34,377 nt of DNA from positions 1 to 34,377 of the forward strand of contig NZ_JAAQPH010000035.1 of NCBI RefSeq assembly GCF_011683915.1, given 5' to 3'. Each line of letters opens with the position of its first letter. The stretch's first letter is position 1. This stretch comes from Pelagibius litoralis. GTDB lineage: Bacteria > Pseudomonadota > Alphaproteobacteria > Kiloniellales > Kiloniellaceae. This document shows, piece after piece, positions 15,025 to 26,766 of this stretch. A program made the position numbers and the translations under genes. The notes below the pieces were generated by a model. It was not told the origin of the DNA and searched no databases. It saw only the letters and a list, made by a program, of their open reading frames with translations.

Positions 15025-15106
15025 AAAATTTATCTTGTTTTTGAACTAACCAGGATCTCTCCGCGACAAATGAGCAACCTAACGATTGGTGCAAATGGAG
15101 AGAGTT

Positions 15107-15871
15107 ATGATCAAGGAACAGATTACGAAGGGTCTGCTGGTTTCGGCCATCGCCCTGACCCTGGGGTCCGGCGTTGCCGCCGCCCAGCAGAATTCGTCCG
15201 ATGGATTGATCGGCGATGTCGCCGCCGTGCTTGCCGCGCGCAGCGATGTTTTCCAGGCGACTTCGGCCAATCTCGATGTCGTGCCGCTGAATATGGCCGG
15301 TTCCTGCCCGCAGGCTTATGCCTTCAACATCCGGGTCGGCGCCCAGTCCCCCGGCAAGCTGACCTATCAGATCGTCACCGAAGACGGGCGGGCCTCGCAG
15401 GTCTTCGAAGCTGAGGCCAGCGCCACCGAAGACGGGCTTTTCGCTGTCAAGGCAAGCCACAAGCTGGCCCTGGCGCAGAGCGAACAGACCGCCGAAGACT
15501 CCTCGATCGTGGTTTTCGATCAACTGGAGAACTTCAAGCAAATCCGTGAGCCTGACTTCTTCGAGCGGCTCTTCGGCACCGGCCCGGCGGCTGAGGACGA
15601 CGATGTCCAGGGCCTGCGTAACCAGGCCTTCATGGTGAAGGTTCTCGCCCCGAACCAGGTGGCCTCCAGCTTTGACCGCCATTCGGTGAGTTGTGAGCCT
15701 CAGCGCGAGACGCGCATCATTCCGGCCTCCATGGAGAGCCAGCGTGATCCCGGCGACCGCGACCGTGGCGGTAGAGACCGTGGTGGCAGAGGTGGTGGTG
15801 ATTCTTCCAGCACCGATGGTGGTGGCCGTGACCGTGGCGACCCCAGCGGCGGCACGGCGGGGGGGATCTGA
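15107..15871 (+). CDS. Exported protein of unknown function, tandem copy 1
   Basis: The ATG at 15107 is chosen because its paralogue at 16169 starts at the same place behind the same GGAGAGAGTT site; the frame 21 bases longer upstream is less likely. The 254-residue product has a signal peptide (MIKEQITKGLLVSAIALTL, cleaved near AAAQQN). A folded region with two cysteines (SCPQAYAF and SCEPQRE) runs to about residue 210, and a tail of DRDRGGRDRGGRGGG repeats follows. No family was recognised. The protein is similar to the product of the next gene over its whole length, so it arose by duplication. A hairpin terminator follows at 15912. Confidence 0.7.
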   Translation: MIKEQITKGLLVSAIALTLGSGVAAAQQNSSDGLIGDVAAVLAARSDVFQATSANLDVVPLNMAGSCPQAYAFNIRVGAQSPGKLTYQIVTEDGRASQVFEAEASATEDGLFAVKASHKLALAQSEQTAEDSSIVVFDQLENFKQIREPDFFERLFGTGPAAEDDDVQGLRNQAFMVKVLAPNQVASSFDRHSVSCEPQRETRIIPASMESQRDPGDRDRGGRDRGGRGGGDSSSTDGGGRDRGDPSGGTAGGI

Positions 15872-16168: not shown

Positions 16169-16915
16169 ATGATTAAGGAACAGGTTGCCAAGGGTCTGCT
16201 GGTTTCGGCCATCGCCCTGACCCTGGGGTCCGGCGTTGCCGCCGCCCAACAGAATTCGTCCGATGGATTGATCGGCGATGTCGCCGCCGTGCTTGCCGCC
16301 CGTAGCGATGTCTTCCAGGCGACCACGGCCAGTCTTGATGTCGTGCCGATGAACATGGCCGGCTCCTGCCCGCGGGCCTTTGCTTTCAATGTCAGCGTCG
16401 GTGCCCAGTCCCCCGGCACGCTGTCCTATCAGATTGTCACGGACGACGGCCGCGAGTCCCAGGTCTTTAAGGCCCAGACACGCGCGACGGAAGACGGTCT
16501 CTTTGCCGCCCAGGCCAGCCACAAGCTGGCCCTGGTGGAGAGCGAGCAGACCGAAGCCGATGCTTCGATCGTCGTCTTCGACCGGCCGGAGAATCCGACA
16601 CCGGCTCGTGAGCCTGACTTTTTCGAGCGGCTTTTCGGCACAGGTCCGGCCGCCGAGCCGTATGACCCCCAGGGTCTGCGCAATCAGGCCTTCAAAGTGA
16701 AGGTGGTGGCGCCGAACGAAGTGGTCTCGGCCTTCGACAGCCTCTCGGTCAGTTGCGAGCCGCAGCGCACACCACGGGTCGTTCCGGCCACGGAGAGCCA
16801 GCGTGATCCCGGCGACCGCGACCGTGGCGGACGTGATCCCGGTGGGCGTGATCCCGGCGGACGTGATTCCGGTGGAACCGGCGGTGGGGGCAGCGGACCA
16901 TCAGGTACCCCCTGA
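16169..16915 (+). CDS. Exported protein of unknown function, tandem copy 2
   Basis: This 248-residue protein is a paralogue of the gene ending at 15871. The signal peptide is near identical (MIKEQVAKGLLVSAIALTL) and so is the next stretch (SSDGLIGDVAAVLAARSDVF). It has the same two cysteines (SCPRAFAF and SCEPQR). Conserved EPDFFERLFGTGPAAE and VSCEPQR segments suggest a common fold. The tail of GGRDPGGRD units is longer than in copy 1 and is built from 15-bp DNA repeats at 16829-16873. The leader shares TGTTTTTGAACT and GATTGGTGCA blocks with copy 1, so the duplication includes about 85 bases of upstream sequence. The function is unknown; the tail may bind nucleic acid or a surface, but this is speculation. 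Confidence 0.7.
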   Translation: MIKEQVAKGLLVSAIALTLGSGVAAAQQNSSDGLIGDVAAVLAARSDVFQATTASLDVVPMNMAGSCPRAFAFNVSVGAQSPGTLSYQIVTDDGRESQVFKAQTRATEDGLFAAQASHKLALVESEQTEADASIVVFDRPENPTPAREPDFFERLFGTGPAAEPYDPQGLRNQAFKVKVVAPNEVVSAFDSLSVSCEPQRTPRVVPATESQRDPGDRDRGGRDPGGRDPGGRDSGGTGGGGSGPSGTP

Positions 16916-21392: not shown

Positions 21393-23144
21393 TCAGGCCG
21401 TTTCCTCGGTGCCGGTTTCCGGAGAGCCCTTCGTCTCCGCCGTGCGCTTCGCCAGCGCGGCGGCCTTTGCAACGGCCGGTTTTACCGTCTCCTTGGCGGC
21501 CGCTTCATCGGCAACGATGCCCTGGGACAGGCGGTGCAGCATGTTGTTCGGATTTTCCTTGGCATTGAAGCCCAGGTCCGTCAGCAGCTCGTCCACCATG
21601 GGTGCCTGCATGCGATAGTTCAGCAGGGACTGCACGATGTTGTCGGGCAGGCTGCCGCCGCCCAAGGCGGCGCCACCGGGTGCCGCAGCACTGCCACCGT
21701 TCCCGCCGGCACCGGCCAGGCCTGGCATCAGTGCGCCGCCGCCCGTCATACCACCGCCGAAGTCGATGACGCGGATGTCCTTGATCTTCTCCACCGCCTT
21801 CATGGAGGCGGCCATGACCTCGGGCATCACCTCGATCAGTGCCTTCTTCAGCTCCAGGGCGATGATGCGGTCGTCCAGCACGTTGCGGGCGGCGTTGATC
21901 GCCTCCTGGCCGTCGGCTTCCACCTTATAGCGGGCCGCGTCGGCCTCGGCGTTGATCTTGGTCGCCTCCGCCTCGGCGCGGGCGGTGATCAGGGTGGCTC
22001 CCGCCTCATCCTCGGCGGCGGTACGCTCGGCCTCGGCGGCCACGGTGATGCCGACCGCGTTCTTCTCGGCGTCCTCTTTGGCGGCGACGATGGCGACCGC
22101 TTTCTGGCGTTCGGCCTCGGCCACCCGGGCCACGGTCTTCACTTCTTCTTCCTCGCGCACCGCGGTGGCGCGGGCCTTGTTGGCCTCGGCCGCGGCGAGC
22201 GATTCTTCCTGCGACTTGGTGGCCACCGTGATCGCCTTGTCCTGGCGCGTCAGCTCCACGTCGCGGTCGGATTCGATCTGCCTGCGCTCCACCGCCAGCT
22301 TGGCCTGGATCGCCGCCTGTTCCTCCAGACGCTTGGCTTCGGCCTCTTTTTCAGCGGTCTGGGCCCGGGTCTCGGCGGCATAGTTGGCCACGTTGCGCTC
22401 GGTATCCAGGCGTGCGTAATCCTTCTCCTGATTGATCTCGTAGGCGCGGCGGTCGGCTTCGAGATTGCGCTGCTCGATGGCGATGCGGGTTTCCTGCTCG
22501 ATCTCGTTGCGCTCTTTAGTCTTCAGCTGGGTGATCTCGGTGAGCCGCGTCAAACCCTCCGCATCGAAGGCGTTGTTGGGGTTGAAGAACTCAGAGGACG
22601 TCTGGTCCAGCGTGGTCAGAGAAACCGATTCCAGCTCCAGGCCGTTCTGCTCCAGATCGCCGGCGACCGCGTTCTGAACCTTCTGAACGAAGTCGGTGCG
22701 CTTTTCGTGCAGGTCATTGAGATTCATCTGCGCGGCGACACCGCGCAGGGCATCGACGAACTTGGCCTCGACCAGTTCGCGCAGCTGTTCACCCTCCAGG
22801 GTGCGTTCGCCCAGGGTCTGGGCGGCCAGGGCGATGGATTCCCGGTTGGGCTTCACGCGCACATAGAACTCCACGCCGATGTCGACGCGCATGCGGTCGA
22901 AGGTGATCATCGCCGCCTCGCGCTGGCGGTTCACCTCCAGGCGCAGGGTGCGCAGGTTCACCCAGGTGATGTCGTGCAGCACCGGCAGCTTCAGGGCGCC
23001 GCCGTCCTGGACGACCTTCTGGCCTCCCAGACCGGTCTTGACGAAGGCCAGGTCCTTTGGCGCGCGCACGTAGAGGCGGGCGAAGATGAAGCAGACCACG
23101 ATGAAAGCGATTGTGCCGAAACCGGCCAGAAAGATGATCTCCAT
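21393..23144 (-). CDS. Flotillin family protein (YqiK-like)
   Basis: This 583-residue protein has an N-terminal membrane segment (FLAGFGTIAFIVVCFIFARL), an SPFH domain over about residues 28-210, and a very long Glu/Ala-rich coiled coil (about 215-430: EKEAEAKRLEEQAA, AAEANKARATAVREEEE). A Gly-rich spacer (about 470-505) and a short C-terminal region follow. This is the layout of YqiK-type flotillins, which form oligomeric membrane microdomains. It lies directly after yqiJ (3 bases between the stop and this start), with GGGGATTAAGAC acting as its ribosome-binding site. In other bacteria these genes go with PspA/IM30 in a membrane-stress unit, as here. Confidence 0.9.
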   Translation of the reverse strand: MEIIFLAGFGTIAFIVVCFIFARLYVRAPKDLAFVKTGLGGQKVVQDGGALKLPVLHDITWVNLRTLRLEVNRQREAAMITFDRMRVDIGVEFYVRVKPNRESIALAAQTLGERTLEGEQLRELVEAKFVDALRGVAAQMNLNDLHEKRTDFVQKVQNAVAGDLEQNGLELESVSLTTLDQTSSEFFNPNNAFDAEGLTRLTEITQLKTKERNEIEQETRIAIEQRNLEADRRAYEINQEKDYARLDTERNVANYAAETRAQTAEKEAEAKRLEEQAAIQAKLAVERRQIESDRDVELTRQDKAITVATKSQEESLAAAEANKARATAVREEEEVKTVARVAEAERQKAVAIVAAKEDAEKNAVGITVAAEAERTAAEDEAGATLITARAEAEATKINAEADAARYKVEADGQEAINAARNVLDDRIIALELKKALIEVMPEVMAASMKAVEKIKDIRVIDFGGGMTGGGALMPGLAGAGGNGGSAAAPGGAALGGGSLPDNIVQSLLNYRMQAPMVDELLTDLGFNAKENPNNMLHRLSQGIVADEAAAKETVKPAVAKAAALAKRTAETKGSPETGTEETA

Positions 23145-23147
23145 GTC

Positions 23148-23846
23148 TTAATCCCCATTCTGTGAATGACTGCTCGAAAGGCTGCTTGGCGGCGTGATCA
23201 CCTCGAAGAGGGAACGCTTATGGCCGACCAGCAGCACGGCCGCGTCCGTCTGAAATGTCTCGCCCCGGTTGGCCGCGCGGACGCGCACGAAATGCAGGTT
23301 GCCGTGTTGGTCGGCGACCTTGGCTTTGCCGGCCGCCCGTCGGGTGACGGGCCCCAGGGAGATGGTCGCAATGCGACCGATAAGGTCTTCATTCCCGGTG
23401 GCATAGGTTTCCTCCCGCGGTACCACGCGGCCCAGGCCGCGGCTGGTCCAGCGGGTTACCGGGATCGCCGCCGCCAGGGCGGCAGGGGCGGCGAGCAGGC
23501 TGGGCAGATAAAAGCCCAGGGTCCCGCCCACCAGCATCTGCAGGGCATAGCCGCCGACCGTGAAGACTGTAAGGAAGGTCAGCAGCAGCACCAGGAAGGG
23601 CACCCGCCCGACATTGAGCCAGGAAAGCGCATCGCCCAGGATGGTGCCCTCGGCCTCGGGGGTCTCTGCATCGATGTCGGCGCTGGTGCCGGGGCCGATA
23701 TCGGGCAACACGTCGTCGACCAGATCGGAAAGGCCAAGGCCAAGAAGAACGCTCAGAATCTCTACCGCGGCAATGACCAGGGTGATGACCGCGGTCGCCA
23801 GGAACGGGCTGTTCTGGTCAGCGAAGAAAAATCCGACCGATGTCAT
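23148..23846 (-). CDS. YqiJ/NfeD-like membrane protein with C-terminal OB-fold
   Basis: The 232-residue protein starts behind a strong GAGGGGAG site. Its hydrophobic N-terminal segments (about residues 15-40, 80-100 and 105-132) form three or so helices. A loop rich in Asp and Pro (DDVLPDIGPG) separates the first two. The last 90 residues, beginning near GRVVPREETYATGNEDLIGRIA, form a small beta domain of the NfeD/YqiJ OB-fold type. Such proteins pair with flotillins and are thought to anchor or regulate them. The order PspA, YqiJ, flotillin, with short gaps, makes one operon. No NfeD serine-protease part is present. Confidence 0.8.
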   Translation of the reverse strand: MTSVGFFFADQNSPFLATAVITLVIAAVEILSVLLGLGLSDLVDDVLPDIGPGTSADIDAETPEAEGTILGDALSWLNVGRVPFLVLLLTFLTVFTVGGYALQMLVGGTLGFYLPSLLAAPAALAAAIPVTRWTSRGLGRVVPREETYATGNEDLIGRIATISLGPVTRRAAGKAKVADQHGNLHFVRVRAANRGETFQTDAAVLLVGHKRSLFEVITPPSSLSSSHSQNGD

Positions 23847-23910: not shown

Positions 23911-25083
23911 TCAGTTCCCGCCTTTCAGGCGTGCCTTATGCTTGGCGAGGCGTTCCTGGATCGCGTGTTGGCGGTGCAGCTCCGCCAAGTCGTCCAGATC
24001 GCGATTGCTGATGTGGCTTTCCTCCGCCGGCAGGCCGGTGAATTTCTCGCCCAGGCGCTGGGCGGCGTTCATCGCCGCATCGGCCTGGCTTTGGGCCTTG
24101 CTGCCGCCGGCGATGTCGCCTTCGGGAACGGCCGGGGCGGCGGCCTTCAGGTCGCGCAGGCGGCCCTGGGCCTCCCGGCGGCTGGCCTGCAGGGCGGCCA
24201 GGGAGTCGGTCAGCTTGGCGACTTCCTCGTCCTCCTCGCCCAGGGTGCGCTCCAGCAGGGCGAGCTGGTTTTCGATGTCGAGCTGGCGGCCGACGCCGGC
24301 CTCCGCCAGATCCTCCTTGGACTCCTGGACGGCCAGCGCGATCTTTTCGCTCAGCGAATCGTGCTCCTGCTGCAGCTCGGTGATGCGGCGGCGCGCGTTA
24401 TGCTTGGTGGCTTCGTGCTTGCCGACCTCGCTGCGCACTTCCTTGACCGCGTCGTCGATGTCGCGGATGGCCTGTTCCATGATCGGCACCGAAGCGGCCT
24501 GCTCGGCCTGCTCGATGGCGTTGTGGGTCAGCCCGGAAACCAGGCGGGTGATACGGTTCAAAAGACTATCGGGCATGAACTGCTCCTTTCCCAATCGGTG
24601 ACGGTGCAACAGGGCTTCGCTCAGCGCGGTGCGCAGGATGAAAACCCAGTCCCCGTCGAAACGGCAGAGCTCGGCGCTGCCGACGAGAAACTCTCCTTCG
24701 GCGTAGGTGGTCAGGGTGCAGGGCACCACGACACGCCCGCCAAGCGTGGAGAGAGAAACCGCATCGACCGATTTCATCGAATAAAGATGCCGGTCGAAGG
24801 GCACCGGGCCCCCGGGGGAAACCTGGGGAACCACGACCGCCTTGCGGCAGAGGCGCGCAATGTGCTTGAGGCACAGCACCGCTGCCTGGGACGGCAGGCC
24901 GAAACGCTCCCTCAGGCGGCTGTAGTAAAGGCGATGCAGTCGGACCTGGTCGGAAATTCCGGCATCGAAGACCAGCTGCGACAGCCAGTTTGCCGCCTCG
25001 GCATAACGCTCGGCATAGGCACGCAGCTGATCGGATTGTTCCCCCGATGGATGTAGCTGCAGAACCGCTTCAGTTGAATGCAT
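23911..25083 (-). CDS. TnpB N-terminal-like domain in frame with a PspA/IM30 domain
   Basis: One open frame of 390 codons starts at an ATG preceded by GGAGAAAGAG (GTG at 25095 is an alternative). Residues about 5-155 match the N-terminal half of IS605/IS607-type TnpB: AEAANWLSQLVF, LYYSRLRERFGLPSQAA, PFDRHLYSMKSVDAVSLSTL and GGRVVVPCTL in the usual order, ending in FDGDWVFILRT just before the RuvC-I motif would start. No RuvC, DED residues or zinc finger follow. From Met-170 the protein is PspA/IM30-like: SLLNRITRLVSGLTHNAIEQ, then a long helical coiled coil, and a less conserved end. PspA normally binds the inner membrane under stress. The inner Met-170 has its own perfect ribosome-binding site, so a 221-residue PspA is surely or probably made; whether the long form is made is unknown. 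The similarity to TnpB is by recall. Confidence 0.8.
   Translation of the reverse strand: MHSTEAVLQLHPSGEQSDQLRAYAERYAEAANWLSQLVFDAGISDQVRLHRLYYSRLRERFGLPSQAAVLCLKHIARLCRKAVVVPQVSPGGPVPFDRHLYSMKSVDAVSLSTLGGRVVVPCTLTTYAEGEFLVGSAELCRFDGDWVFILRTALSEALLHRHRLGKEQFMPDSLLNRITRLVSGLTHNAIEQAEQAASVPIMEQAIRDIDDAVKEVRSEVGKHEATKHNARRRITELQQEHDSLSEKIALAVQESKEDLAEAGVGRQLDIENQLALLERTLGEEDEEVAKLTDSLAALQASRREAQGRLRDLKAAAPAVPEGDIAGGSKAQSQADAAMNAAQRLGEKFTGLPAEESHISNRDLDDLAELHRQHAIQERLAKHKARLKGGN
24574..24589 (-). promoter_or_regulatory. Internal ribosome-binding site and start of PspA
   Basis: On the minus strand AAAGGAG (24589-24583) lies six bases before the ATG at 24576-24574, which is the first codon of the PspA domain (MPDSLLNRITR). 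This is the best ribosome-binding site in this operon. It means PspA (23911-24576, 221 residues) can be made on its own. The preceding frame has no stop before it. Confidence 0.75.
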
Positions 25084-25106
25084 CTCTTTCTCCACGCTTC
25101 ATGGTT

Positions 25107-25136
25107 ATATAAGGGGATGATTTGTCCTTTCGTCAA
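25107..25136 (-). promoter_or_regulatory. Candidate promoter of the TnpB-like/PspA operon
   Basis: On the minus strand TTGACG (25136-25131), an 18-base spacer and TTATAT (25112-25107) end 23 bases before the ATG at 25083. It is a good sigma-70 type promoter, so the operon does not need a sigma-54 promoter of the E. coli psp type; I saw none. Confidence 0.55.
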
Positions 25137-25163
25137 GGGACTATATATGACCTTTTGACGAAA
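25128..25163. promoter_or_regulatory. Inverted repeat overlapping the -35 element
   Basis: TTTCGTCAA (25128-25136) and TTGACGAAA (25155-25163) are perfect 9-bp inverted arms with an 18-base spacer containing ACTATATATGA. The left arm includes the -35 of the operon promoter, so a dimeric regulator bound here could act as repressor or activator. The regulator is unknown. Confidence 0.5.
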
Positions 25164-25234
25164 TTGTCACCGCAACACTGCGGCAACCCTTGGAAAACTG
25201 CCGAAATTCTGTGGATTGGCGAGAATTCTCCGGC

Positions 25235-25264
25235 TTGCGGCGGGGGCCTCCTTACGTCTAGATT
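25235..25264 (+). promoter_or_regulatory. Candidate promoter of thrC
   Basis: TTGCGG (25235-25240), 18 bases and TAGATT (25259-25264) end 56 bases before the thrC start. This is a moderate match. No Thr/Ile-rich leader peptide or attenuator was seen. Confidence 0.35.
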
Positions 25265-25320
25265 GGCGGTTTGCACAGCAAGCCGTTGTGATTTCGGCAT
25301 TCTGATTCGAGGCCTTTGCC

Positions 25321-26766
25321 ATGCGTTACCTTTCCACCAGGGGCAAGGCCCCGGTGCTTTCGTTCGACGAAGCCCTGTTGACGGGCTTGGCGCGCGACGG
25401 CGGCCTCTACCTGCCGGAAAGCTGGCCGAGCTTTTCTCCCCAGGAAATCCGCGCCCTTGCCGGCAAGCCCTATGCCGAGGTCGCTTACGCCGTGATCAAG
25501 CCCTTTGTCGGCGACTGCATCGCGGATGCCGACCTGCGGCGCATCCTGACGGAAACCTATGGCGTCTTCGGCCACCGGGCGGTTGCGCCCCTGAAGCAGC
25601 TCGACGAGCGCACTTGGCTGATGGAGCTGTTCCACGGGCCGACCCTGGCCTTCAAGGACTATGCCCTGCAGCTTGTCGGCCATCTCTTCGATCATGTCCT
25701 GCGCCAACGCGGCGAGCGGGTCACGGTGATCGGTGCGACCTCCGGCGATACCGGCTCCGCGGCGATCGAGGCCTGCCGCGACCGCGACCAGGTCGACATC
25801 TTCATGCTGCATCCCAAGGGGCGCACTTCTGAGGTGCAGCGCCGGCAGATGACGACGATCCTGTCTTCCAATGTGCACAACATCGCCGTGGAAGGCACTT
25901 TCGATGACTGCCAGGATCAGGTGAAAGCGATGTTCAACGACATCGGCTTTCGCGACGCCATGAACCTCTCGGCGGTGAACTCCATCAACTGGGCGCGCAT
26001 CATGGCCCAGATCGTCTACTACTTCGTCGCCGCGGTGGCGCTGGGTGCGCCGGACCGCGCGATTGCCTTTGCCGTGCCGACCGGCAACTTCGGCAACATC
26101 TATGCCGCCTATGCGGCCGGGCGCATGGGCCTGCCGGTCAGCCAGTTGATCGTCGGCTCCAACAGCAACGACATTCTGACCCGCTTCTTCAACAGCGGCA
26201 CCATGGAGATGGCGCCGGTCAATCCGACGATTTCGCCGTCGATGGATATCCAGGTTTCCTCGAACTTCGAGCGGCTGCTGTTCGATGTGCTGGACCGTGA
26301 CGGCGACAAGGTGAGCGCCACGCTGACAGGATTCCGCGAAACCGGGCGTTTCGATGTGACGGCGGAACAACTGCAGCGTCTGCGCCGGCTTTTTGACTGT
26401 CATCGTCTGAGTGACGAAGAGACCATGGCGGAGATTGCGGCGCGGCTGCAAACCAGCGGCGAATTGCTGGACCCCCATTCCGCCATCGGCACGGCCGCCG
26501 CGGCGGCGGCCCTGCGCGACGACGTTGCCGTGGTGGTGGCCCTGGCCTGCGCCCATCCGGCCAAGTTCCCCGATGCGGTCGAGAAAGCCTCGGGCGTCCG
26601 CCCGCAACTGCCGGCCCGTCTGGCCGATCTCTATGAACGTGAGGAGCGTTGCACCGTGCTGCCCAACGATCTCTCGGCCCTGCAGGGTTACATCAGCGGC
26701 AACCGCCCGCCGGCGGATGCGCCCTCGTCTGATACGTCGGCGTCTTCAGTCAGGGGCGCCGCATGA
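25321..26766 (+). CDS. thrC: Threonine synthase
   Basis: This 481-residue PLP enzyme converts O-phosphohomoserine to threonine. The N-terminus MRYLSTRGKAPVLSFDEALLTG (split: MRYLSTRG, FDEALLTGLARDGGLYLPE) is typical of the longer bacterial/fungal ThrC type. The PLP lysine is K112 in LAFKDYALQ. Also conserved are the phosphate-binding ATSGDTGSAA, AVPTGNFGNIYA and NSNDILTRFF. The protein lies in the cytoplasm. The stop overlaps the next start by four bases (ATGA), so the M16 gene is translationally coupled. The start lacks a strong ribosome-binding site (GAGG is 10 bases away), but the N-terminal homology fixes it. Confidence 0.96.
   Translation: MRYLSTRGKAPVLSFDEALLTGLARDGGLYLPESWPSFSPQEIRALAGKPYAEVAYAVIKPFVGDCIADADLRRILTETYGVFGHRAVAPLKQLDERTWLMELFHGPTLAFKDYALQLVGHLFDHVLRQRGERVTVIGATSGDTGSAAIEACRDRDQVDIFMLHPKGRTSEVQRRQMTTILSSNVHNIAVEGTFDDCQDQVKAMFNDIGFRDAMNLSAVNSINWARIMAQIVYYFVAAVALGAPDRAIAFAVPTGNFGNIYAAYAAGRMGLPVSQLIVGSNSNDILTRFFNSGTMEMAPVNPTISPSMDIQVSSNFERLLFDVLDRDGDKVSATLTGFRETGRFDVTAEQLQRLRRLFDCHRLSDEETMAEIAARLQTSGELLDPHSAIGTAAAAAALRDDVAVVVALACAHPAKFPDAVEKASGVRPQLPARLADLYEREERCTVLPNDLSALQGYISGNRPPADAPSSDTSASSVRGAA

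Follow-up and report, generated by a model that had tools for sequence, protein, structure and literature searches.

We have identified in Pelagibius litoralis, an alphaproteobacterium of the family Kiloniellaceae, a gene that joins the N-terminal lobe of the transposon-associated nuclease TnpB to PspA in a single reading frame, followed by genes for a YqiJ-like protein and a flotillin. It is encoded in a stretch of 34,377 nucleotides (contig NZ_JAAQPH010000035.1 of the RefSeq assembly GCF_011683915.1, positions 1 to 34,377), referred to below as the window. The nuclease lobe of TnpB, comprising RuvC and the TNB zinc finger, is absent from the fusion protein. The promoter of the gene carries a putative operator, which suggests that the fusion protein controls its own operon. 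We consider it rather probable that the lobe of TnpB reading the transposon-associated motif (TAM) has been recruited, free of both guide RNA and nuclease, to bind DNA in a one-piece autorepressor, with PspA as the half that senses membrane stress.

The TnpB-like part (N-domain) comprises residues 1-169 of the fusion protein, with a homologous stretch of about 160 residues. An earlier reading made from the sequence alone had likened some 155 residues to the N-terminal half (REC/WED) of TnpB, ending just short of the RuvC-I motif, and both statements have held up. The N-domain of the window taken alone is only weakly similar to the NCBIfam model of the TnpB N-terminus, TIGR01765 (E=0.023), has no match in Pfam and finds none among PDB sequences by phmmer; a profile of its relatives also retrieved no TnpB from the PDB sequences. 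Because these Pfam and PDB sequence searches gave none, the assignment is based on comparison with TnpB sequences and profiles and on the fold. TIGR01765 matches 6 of 12 family members, with a best E-value of 1.2e-5. A profile of 12 rows of the N-domain retrieved from another bacterial class a frame of 375 amino acids with RuvC motifs (recognised by eye), with an E-value of 5.5e-19 over positions 3-157 of 163. An hhalign comparison with seven TnpBs, including that 375-residue frame, gave a probability of 99.4% (E=5e-22) over 147 columns, and the homology ends at column 161 of the TnpB profile, before RuvC-I, where PspA follows in the fusion. A plain tblastn search of plasmids with the domain of the window also matched an annotated RNA-guided endonuclease TnpB (1e-5, 24.5% identity). 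Elsewhere in the P. litoralis genome, the search for TnpB gave one PF07282 match, below the cut-off.

An AlphaFold model of the N-domain built from seven rows (the best of five, with a mean predicted local distance difference test score of 79.7; the other four 62-69) has a strand, three long helices and further strands after them. The ten best PDB matches of this model in Foldseek are all proteins of the TnpB/Cas12/Fanzor type, such as dCas12f, ISFba1 TnpB, Fanzor2 and ISDra2 TnpB (query template-modelling score TMq 0.56-0.59, probability 0.98-1.00, E 1.1e-3 to 0.12); the top matches reach a probability of 1.00 at TMq 0.56-0.57. Judged from sequence comparison, the N-domain is homologous to the WED and REC lobe of TnpB, an assignment made firm by its relatives. 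In ISDra2 TnpB the WED (1-12, 117-176) and REC (13-116) domains jointly bind and read the TAM duplex (PMC10097598). Since these are the domains that read the TAM duplex, the part kept in the fusion is the TAM-reading lobe.

The fusion was analysed in 33 loci, which are the window, 17 loci from searches of its relatives and class, five of 11 plasmid records and ten loci from two family searches. This set leaves out the weak hits L050, L051, L052 and L112, which are other proteins, and the TnpB-type hits L048 and L049; the start codons of L033, L045, L067, L105 and L107-L111 were picked by hand among alternatives. The TnpB-PspA frame is open in 33 of 33 loci, with lengths of 375-519 amino acids, and the single stop recorded sits upstream of the ATG. 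The hosts belong to at least eight alphaproteobacterial families (handles f1, f2, f36, f44, f73, f77, f177 and f180) and include Rhizobium leguminosarum, R. daejeonense, Bosea, Shinella, Agrobacterium fabrum, Dongia mobilis and a Kiloniellales genome. On plasmids of the first five of these hosts, public annotation gives one coding sequence named only 'PspA/IM30 family protein'. The occurrence is patchy, with 6 of 385 genomes of the class and, in the two family searches, 6 of 149 and 11 of 199 (two of the latter 11 being false). Within the genus of the window YqiJ is found in four of eight genomes, exactly the four that have the TnpB domain.

Selection on the TnpB-like part, proposed in the sequence-only reading, is borne out by these loci. 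The ratio of nonsynonymous to synonymous change (dN/dS) of the N-domain is 0.046-0.321 over 18 pairs, for which the PspA parts give 0.017-0.629. Saturation is nearly reached in the pair with the highest values. Simulated neutral change, at the divergence of five relatives, keeps the frame open in 6.9%, 2.3%, 0.15%, 0% and 0% of 2000 runs. A tree was built from 45 rows (33 fused domains, nine TnpBs and three stand-alone domains), with a warning from the program about long branches. One branch (96/98, 98% of bootstrap trees) separates all the fused domains from the other rows, which makes a single origin of the PspA-fused TnpB domains possible. The distances between N-domains correlate with those between the PspA parts (r=0.91).

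Upstream of the fusion lies an inverted repeat of 21 base pairs with the consensus AAARNAC-N7-GTNYTTT, to which 22 of 33 loci conform exactly. Its arms of 7 base pairs are perfect in 19 of 33 loci and have at most one mismatch in 26. The repeat is situated at -31 to -33 from the start codon in 25 of the 33, between -35-like and -10-like boxes as judged by eye. When each upstream region of 23 loci was shuffled 1000 times, the 11 exact palindromes were equalled 2-8 times. The arms differ by clade (GGAC, GTAC, GCAC, ACAC and TCAC), the symmetry being kept. Among 12 distinct arm pairs the two arms match at 32 of 36 of the variable positions (4-6), which 1 of 5000 shuffles equalled, with relatedness not removed. 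The palindromes upstream of six full-length TnpBs taken as controls are not significant in any case (42, 45, 300, 63, 90 and 187 of 300 shuffles); one of these upstream stretches is no promoter, since the gene stands directly behind tnpA.

The repeat is also nearly confined to this place in the genome. The pattern AAAGNAC-N7-GTNCTTT was scanned in 23 genomes, 11 of them with the fusion and five of these 11 with other arm types; it occurs in six genomes, at a single place in each, which is always the promoter of the fusion. A GGAC-type pattern, itself written from the same eight fusion promoters, matches the fusion promoter in eight of eight fusion genomes and has no other match in five of them. 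Among these five is P. litoralis, where operator site 2 (see the table) is the sole match. A second, upstream copy in the window, operator site 1, agrees with the consensus, which was built from these promoters, at 10 of 12 positions (0 of 500 shuffles equal). The fusion's own promoter thus carries what is, by its sequence, a dedicated operator-like site, nearly unique in each genome. The promoter palindrome, which the sequence-only reading had not noticed, and its near-uniqueness favour regulation of the operon above the other functions considered for the N-domain, as a putative role; the other role offered in that reading, regulation of mobile RNA, is unsupported.

Genomes without the fusion provide a comparison for the same operon slot. 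YqiJ is encoded in 11 of 190 genomes of the class, three of them with the fusion, four with another short gene before pspA and four without pspA in the stretch examined. The alternative first gene overlaps the start of pspA in three loci and ends 5 nucleotides before it in one. The palindrome is lacking upstream of all four alternative first genes (best 6-8 of 12 positions, 204-500 of 500 shuffles) and is present in the three fusion loci of the sample (10-11 of 12, 0-1 of 500 shuffles). In this small sample of seven loci the promoter element therefore follows the first gene. The four pspA-yqiJ operons (L053, L054, L055 and L057) begin with a gene of about 172 amino acids with a TPSDKIRA-like motif, and their promoters have TGTATNCA-like repeats, noted by eye. 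Three of these gene products were scanned and gave no family match, and a ribbon-helix-helix label given by eye is unconfirmed by any library. The first gene of these operons occupies the same slot as the TnpB domain, but is unrelated to it and unfused, and the promoter repeat, by eye, is a different one.

The fusion loci appear to encode two products. A Shine-Dalgarno sequence just 5' of the PspA ATG is kept in 33 of 33 loci, with two or three close ATGs in L106 and L107. Pairing with the anti-Shine-Dalgarno sequence has a mean energy of -9.7 at this internal start and of -1.6 at the start of the fusion; the internal one is the stronger in all loci but L024, L026 and L008 (30 of 33). In 26 of the 33 the fusion start has hardly any such pairing (above -3); the window and its close kin do pair. 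From this scant pairing and from a start just after the apparent -10 box, we infer that the fusion mRNA of the 26 loci looks leaderless. As no stop closes the N-domain in any locus, it would be made only as part of the fusion, frameshifts aside. Both isoforms are probably produced, and a scarce fusion with abundant free PspA is likely.

Taken together, the following mechanism is proposed. A TnpB would have lost its entire nuclease lobe (RuvC and TNB), that is, the 3' part of the gene, and the REC lobe left over would have been fused in frame to PspA, where it would bind DNA sequence-specifically and without a guide. The fusion protein may bind the palindrome AAARNAC-N7-GTNYTTT as a dimer or oligomer, perhaps formed via PspA. 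In most loci the bound palindrome would fill the spacer between the -35 and -10 boxes of its own promoter, and the pspA-yqiJ-flotillin operon would be repressed. Under membrane stress the PspA part would move to the membrane and pull the DNA-binding part off the operator, resulting in induction of the operon, and the free PspA from the internal start would be the bulk membrane-repair product.

A number of observations weigh against this proposal. The palindrome consensus was derived from the very promoters scored. Among the 23 shuffled loci, seven palindromes with one mismatch were equalled by 54-100 of 1000 shuffles and five with two mismatches, the window among them, by 541-589. The operator of the window is imperfect and degenerate and lies farther from the start than in the other loci; as a bare 7-7-7 palindrome its site 1 is not significant (542 of 1000 shuffles), and a promoter and terminator scan of 24900-25400 found neither a consensus promoter nor a terminator. 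Single chance matches do occur, since the reversed control of AAAGNAC-N7-GTNCTTT matches 3 of 23 genomes and that of the GGAC-type pattern 5 of 17. The GGAC-type pattern has one extra match in three of the eight fusion genomes, and two matches in one of nine fusion-less genomes. The net charge of the N-domain is near zero (+2 in the window, mean 0.0, range -7 to +4), which is unusual for a DNA binder. The residues that contact the TAM could not be mapped, two Deinococcus TnpBs themselves lacking the ISDra2 residues at those numbers. The Foldseek E-values are no better than 1.1e-3, and the model of the full-length fusion has a predicted template-modelling score of 0.42 and is uninformative on the arrangement of the domains.

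The near-zero charge would fit a different arrangement, in which a separate regulator, dedicated to the palindrome and encoded elsewhere, binds there and the TnpB-derived domain serves PspA as an adaptor or oligomerisation module with no role on DNA. Other phage shock protein (PSP) systems do use separate regulators, for example PspF or ClgR, as described in a large survey (PMC11237479). This arrangement is nevertheless unlikely, as the palindrome is nearly unique per genome and accompanies the fusion in the sampled families, and the N-domain derives from a lobe that reads the TAM. No annotated regulator gene is common to five named neighbourhoods, a comparison that covers named neighbours.

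The lobe may instead bind DNA for another purpose, either tethering the nucleoid or mobile DNA to the membrane or interfering with transposons at TAM-like sites, autoregulation being secondary. A TAM reader joined to a membrane-associated protein would be compatible with tethering. Against such roles, to which we give a low probability, stand a near-unique site located at the fusion's own promoter and the different short gene that takes the operon slot elsewhere.

Slightly less probable again is a regulator acting through RNA in the manner of the TldR proteins, with the lobe still binding a guide or its own mRNA. The WED domain of TnpB also contacts omega-RNA (PMC10097598), and TldRs are RNA-guided (PMC13418256). 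The RuvC domain, which also binds the scaffold, is however absent, and a search for structured RNA gave no Rfam match in the window. The operon has little non-coding room for a guide (64 nucleotides between the fusion and yqiJ in the window, 4 in R. leguminosarum), the 26 fusion starts with scant Shine-Dalgarno pairing look leaderless, and the conserved site is a symmetric DNA palindrome. The lack of an Rfam match, the scarce non-coding space and the symmetric DNA site likewise speak against the regulator of mobile RNA.

The remaining explanation is that a remnant of a transposon, accidental or decaying, is read through into pspA. It has nothing beyond descent from TnpB in its favour and is refuted by the 33 open frames, the dN/dS values and the neutral simulations, which left the frame open in at most 6.9% of runs.

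The features of the window are collected in the table. The uninterrupted frame from the TnpB N-terminal part into PspA/IM30, followed by YqiJ and flotillin genes, was recognised in the sequence-only reading and is confirmed. The coiled-coil domain PF04012 scores 47.3 bits (gathering score 33.9), and the equivalog-level phage-shock model TIGR02977 gives 43.8-46.2 bits, below its curated cut-off of 242.95. An in-frame GTG at 25095, upstream of the ATG, was considered as the start of the fusion and is disfavoured, because a Pelagibius relative has a TAA between the GTG position and the ATG.

Features of the fused gene, its promoter and its operon in the window
Feature	Position	Strand	Basis or remark
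TnpB REC-lobe domain and PspA fused gene, 390 amino acids, ATG start	23911..25083	(-)	one open frame, ATG 25083 to stop 23911
TnpB-derived WED+REC (REC-lobe) domain, without RuvC/TNB	24577..25083	(-)	hhalign, TIGR01765, AlphaFold/Foldseek, dN/dS
PspA/IM30 domain, own ATG at 24576	23911..24576	(-)	PF04012, E 2.5e-12; internal start with Shine-Dalgarno
Putative operator site 1, upstream copy, AAAGGTCATATATAGTCCCTT, 2 arm mismatches	25135..25155	(-)	in 4/4 Pelagibius-type loci
Putative operator site 2, AAAGGACAAATCATCCCCTTA, imperfect	25110..25130	(-)	between putative -35 and -10, as palindromes of other clades
Putative -35, TTGACG	25131..25136	(-)	by eye and position relative to relatives; not reported by consensus scan
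Putative -10, TTATAT	25107..25112	(-)	by eye; not reported by consensus scan
Fusion-start Shine-Dalgarno, GGAG	25090..25093	(-)	sequence; pairing energy -6.4
Internal Shine-Dalgarno for free PspA, AAGGAG	24583..24588	(-)	anti-Shine-Dalgarno pairing energy -8.2
YqiJ-like inner-membrane/OB-fold protein, same operon	23148..23846	(-)	PF21001 (4.4e-30), PF07290
Flotillin/SPFH protein, same operon	21393..23144	(-)	PF15975 (3e-31), PF01145

Two other regions of the window may be mentioned. A threonine synthase-like gene (25321-26766, named by eye) is divergent from the fused operon, and a similar gene start neighbours the loci L007 and L008. A tandem pair of paralogous open reading frames (15086-15871 and 16169-16915) has near-identical N-terminal stretches and repetitive tails of the GGRDRGG type.

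N-terminal halves of TnpB without a nuclease also occur as stand-alone proteins. Genome G646 encodes one of 219 amino acids lacking RuvC (locus L079, 4822-5478, minus strand), whose frame overlaps the next and which precedes genes that by eye are ABC/type I secretion-like. Immediately 5' of its start lies a perfect palindrome with arms of 10 base pairs (0 of 300 shuffles), and in the tree the protein is placed apart from the PspA fusions. Two further stand-alone halves, annotated as hypothetical, are encoded on plasmids of Thermobacillus composti and Paenibacillus rhizovicinus (L069, 2495-3025, and L086, 2989-3531). They are 53% identical to each other and form a third nuclease-less lineage in the tree; the palindromes upstream of them are not significant (28 of 300 shuffles for Thermobacillus and 224 of 300 for Paenibacillus). 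Hits annotated as hypothetical in Allomeiothermus and Rhodothermus were also considered and look like broken or truncated TnpBs.

With chances that we put a little short of even, the REC lobe of TnpB may itself be a transcription-factor fold that has turned regulator at least three times (in the PspA fusions, in G646 and in the plasmid lineage of Paenibacillaceae), giving rise in alphaproteobacteria to a membrane-stress switch made of one protein. There is a real chance that the guide-free use represents a new kind of transcription factor. If the proposed autoregulation is true, the TAM-reading lobe of the ancestor of Cas12 would be able to bind DNA as an ordinary domain, needing no guide RNA, by a route of exaptation different from those of TldR and Cas12, and rhizobia and other alphaproteobacteria would have a PSP stress response with sensor, effector and DNA binder in one polypeptide. 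Through the operator and the symmetric variants that occur in nature, the autoregulation is open to direct test.

No TnpB-PspA fusion was described in the accessible parts of the literature on exapted or dead TnpB and on PspA operons, Altae-Tran 2023, Wiegand 2024 and supplements being outside the search. The large PSP survey reports PspA with flotillin and YqiJ-like partners, and its main text mentions no TnpB or transposase (PMC11237479). With TnpB, the RNA-guided nuclease of IS200/IS605 and IS607 elements, the fusion protein shares the N-terminal WED and REC lobe over 147 aligned columns. It differs in having no catalytic RuvC, TNB zinc finger or transposon, and the gene belongs to a conserved pspA-yqiJ-flotillin operon on chromosomes and non-mobilizable plasmids rather than to an element with omega-RNA.

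The fusion resembles TldR in that a TnpB has been exapted from transposons as a nuclease-inactive, and in our case putative, regulator of transcription. TldRs are TnpBs with an inactivated RuvC; they retain guide RNA as well as DNA binding and serve as RNA-guided transcription factors (PMC13418256). In contrast to a RuvC that is mutated but present, the fusion protein lacks the whole nuclease lobe; no guide was seen in the window or its compact operon, the putative site is a DNA palindrome, and the lobe is fused to PspA.

The phage shock response of PspA and PspF is similar in that a PspA domain would be coupled to control of its own operon, with flotillin and YqiJ as neighbours. PspF is inhibited by PspA. 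PspF is a separate AAA+/Fis-HTH enhancer-binding protein, according to the survey (PMC11237479), whereas the fusion has PspA and the putative DNA-binding part covalently linked and is proposed to act as a repressor.
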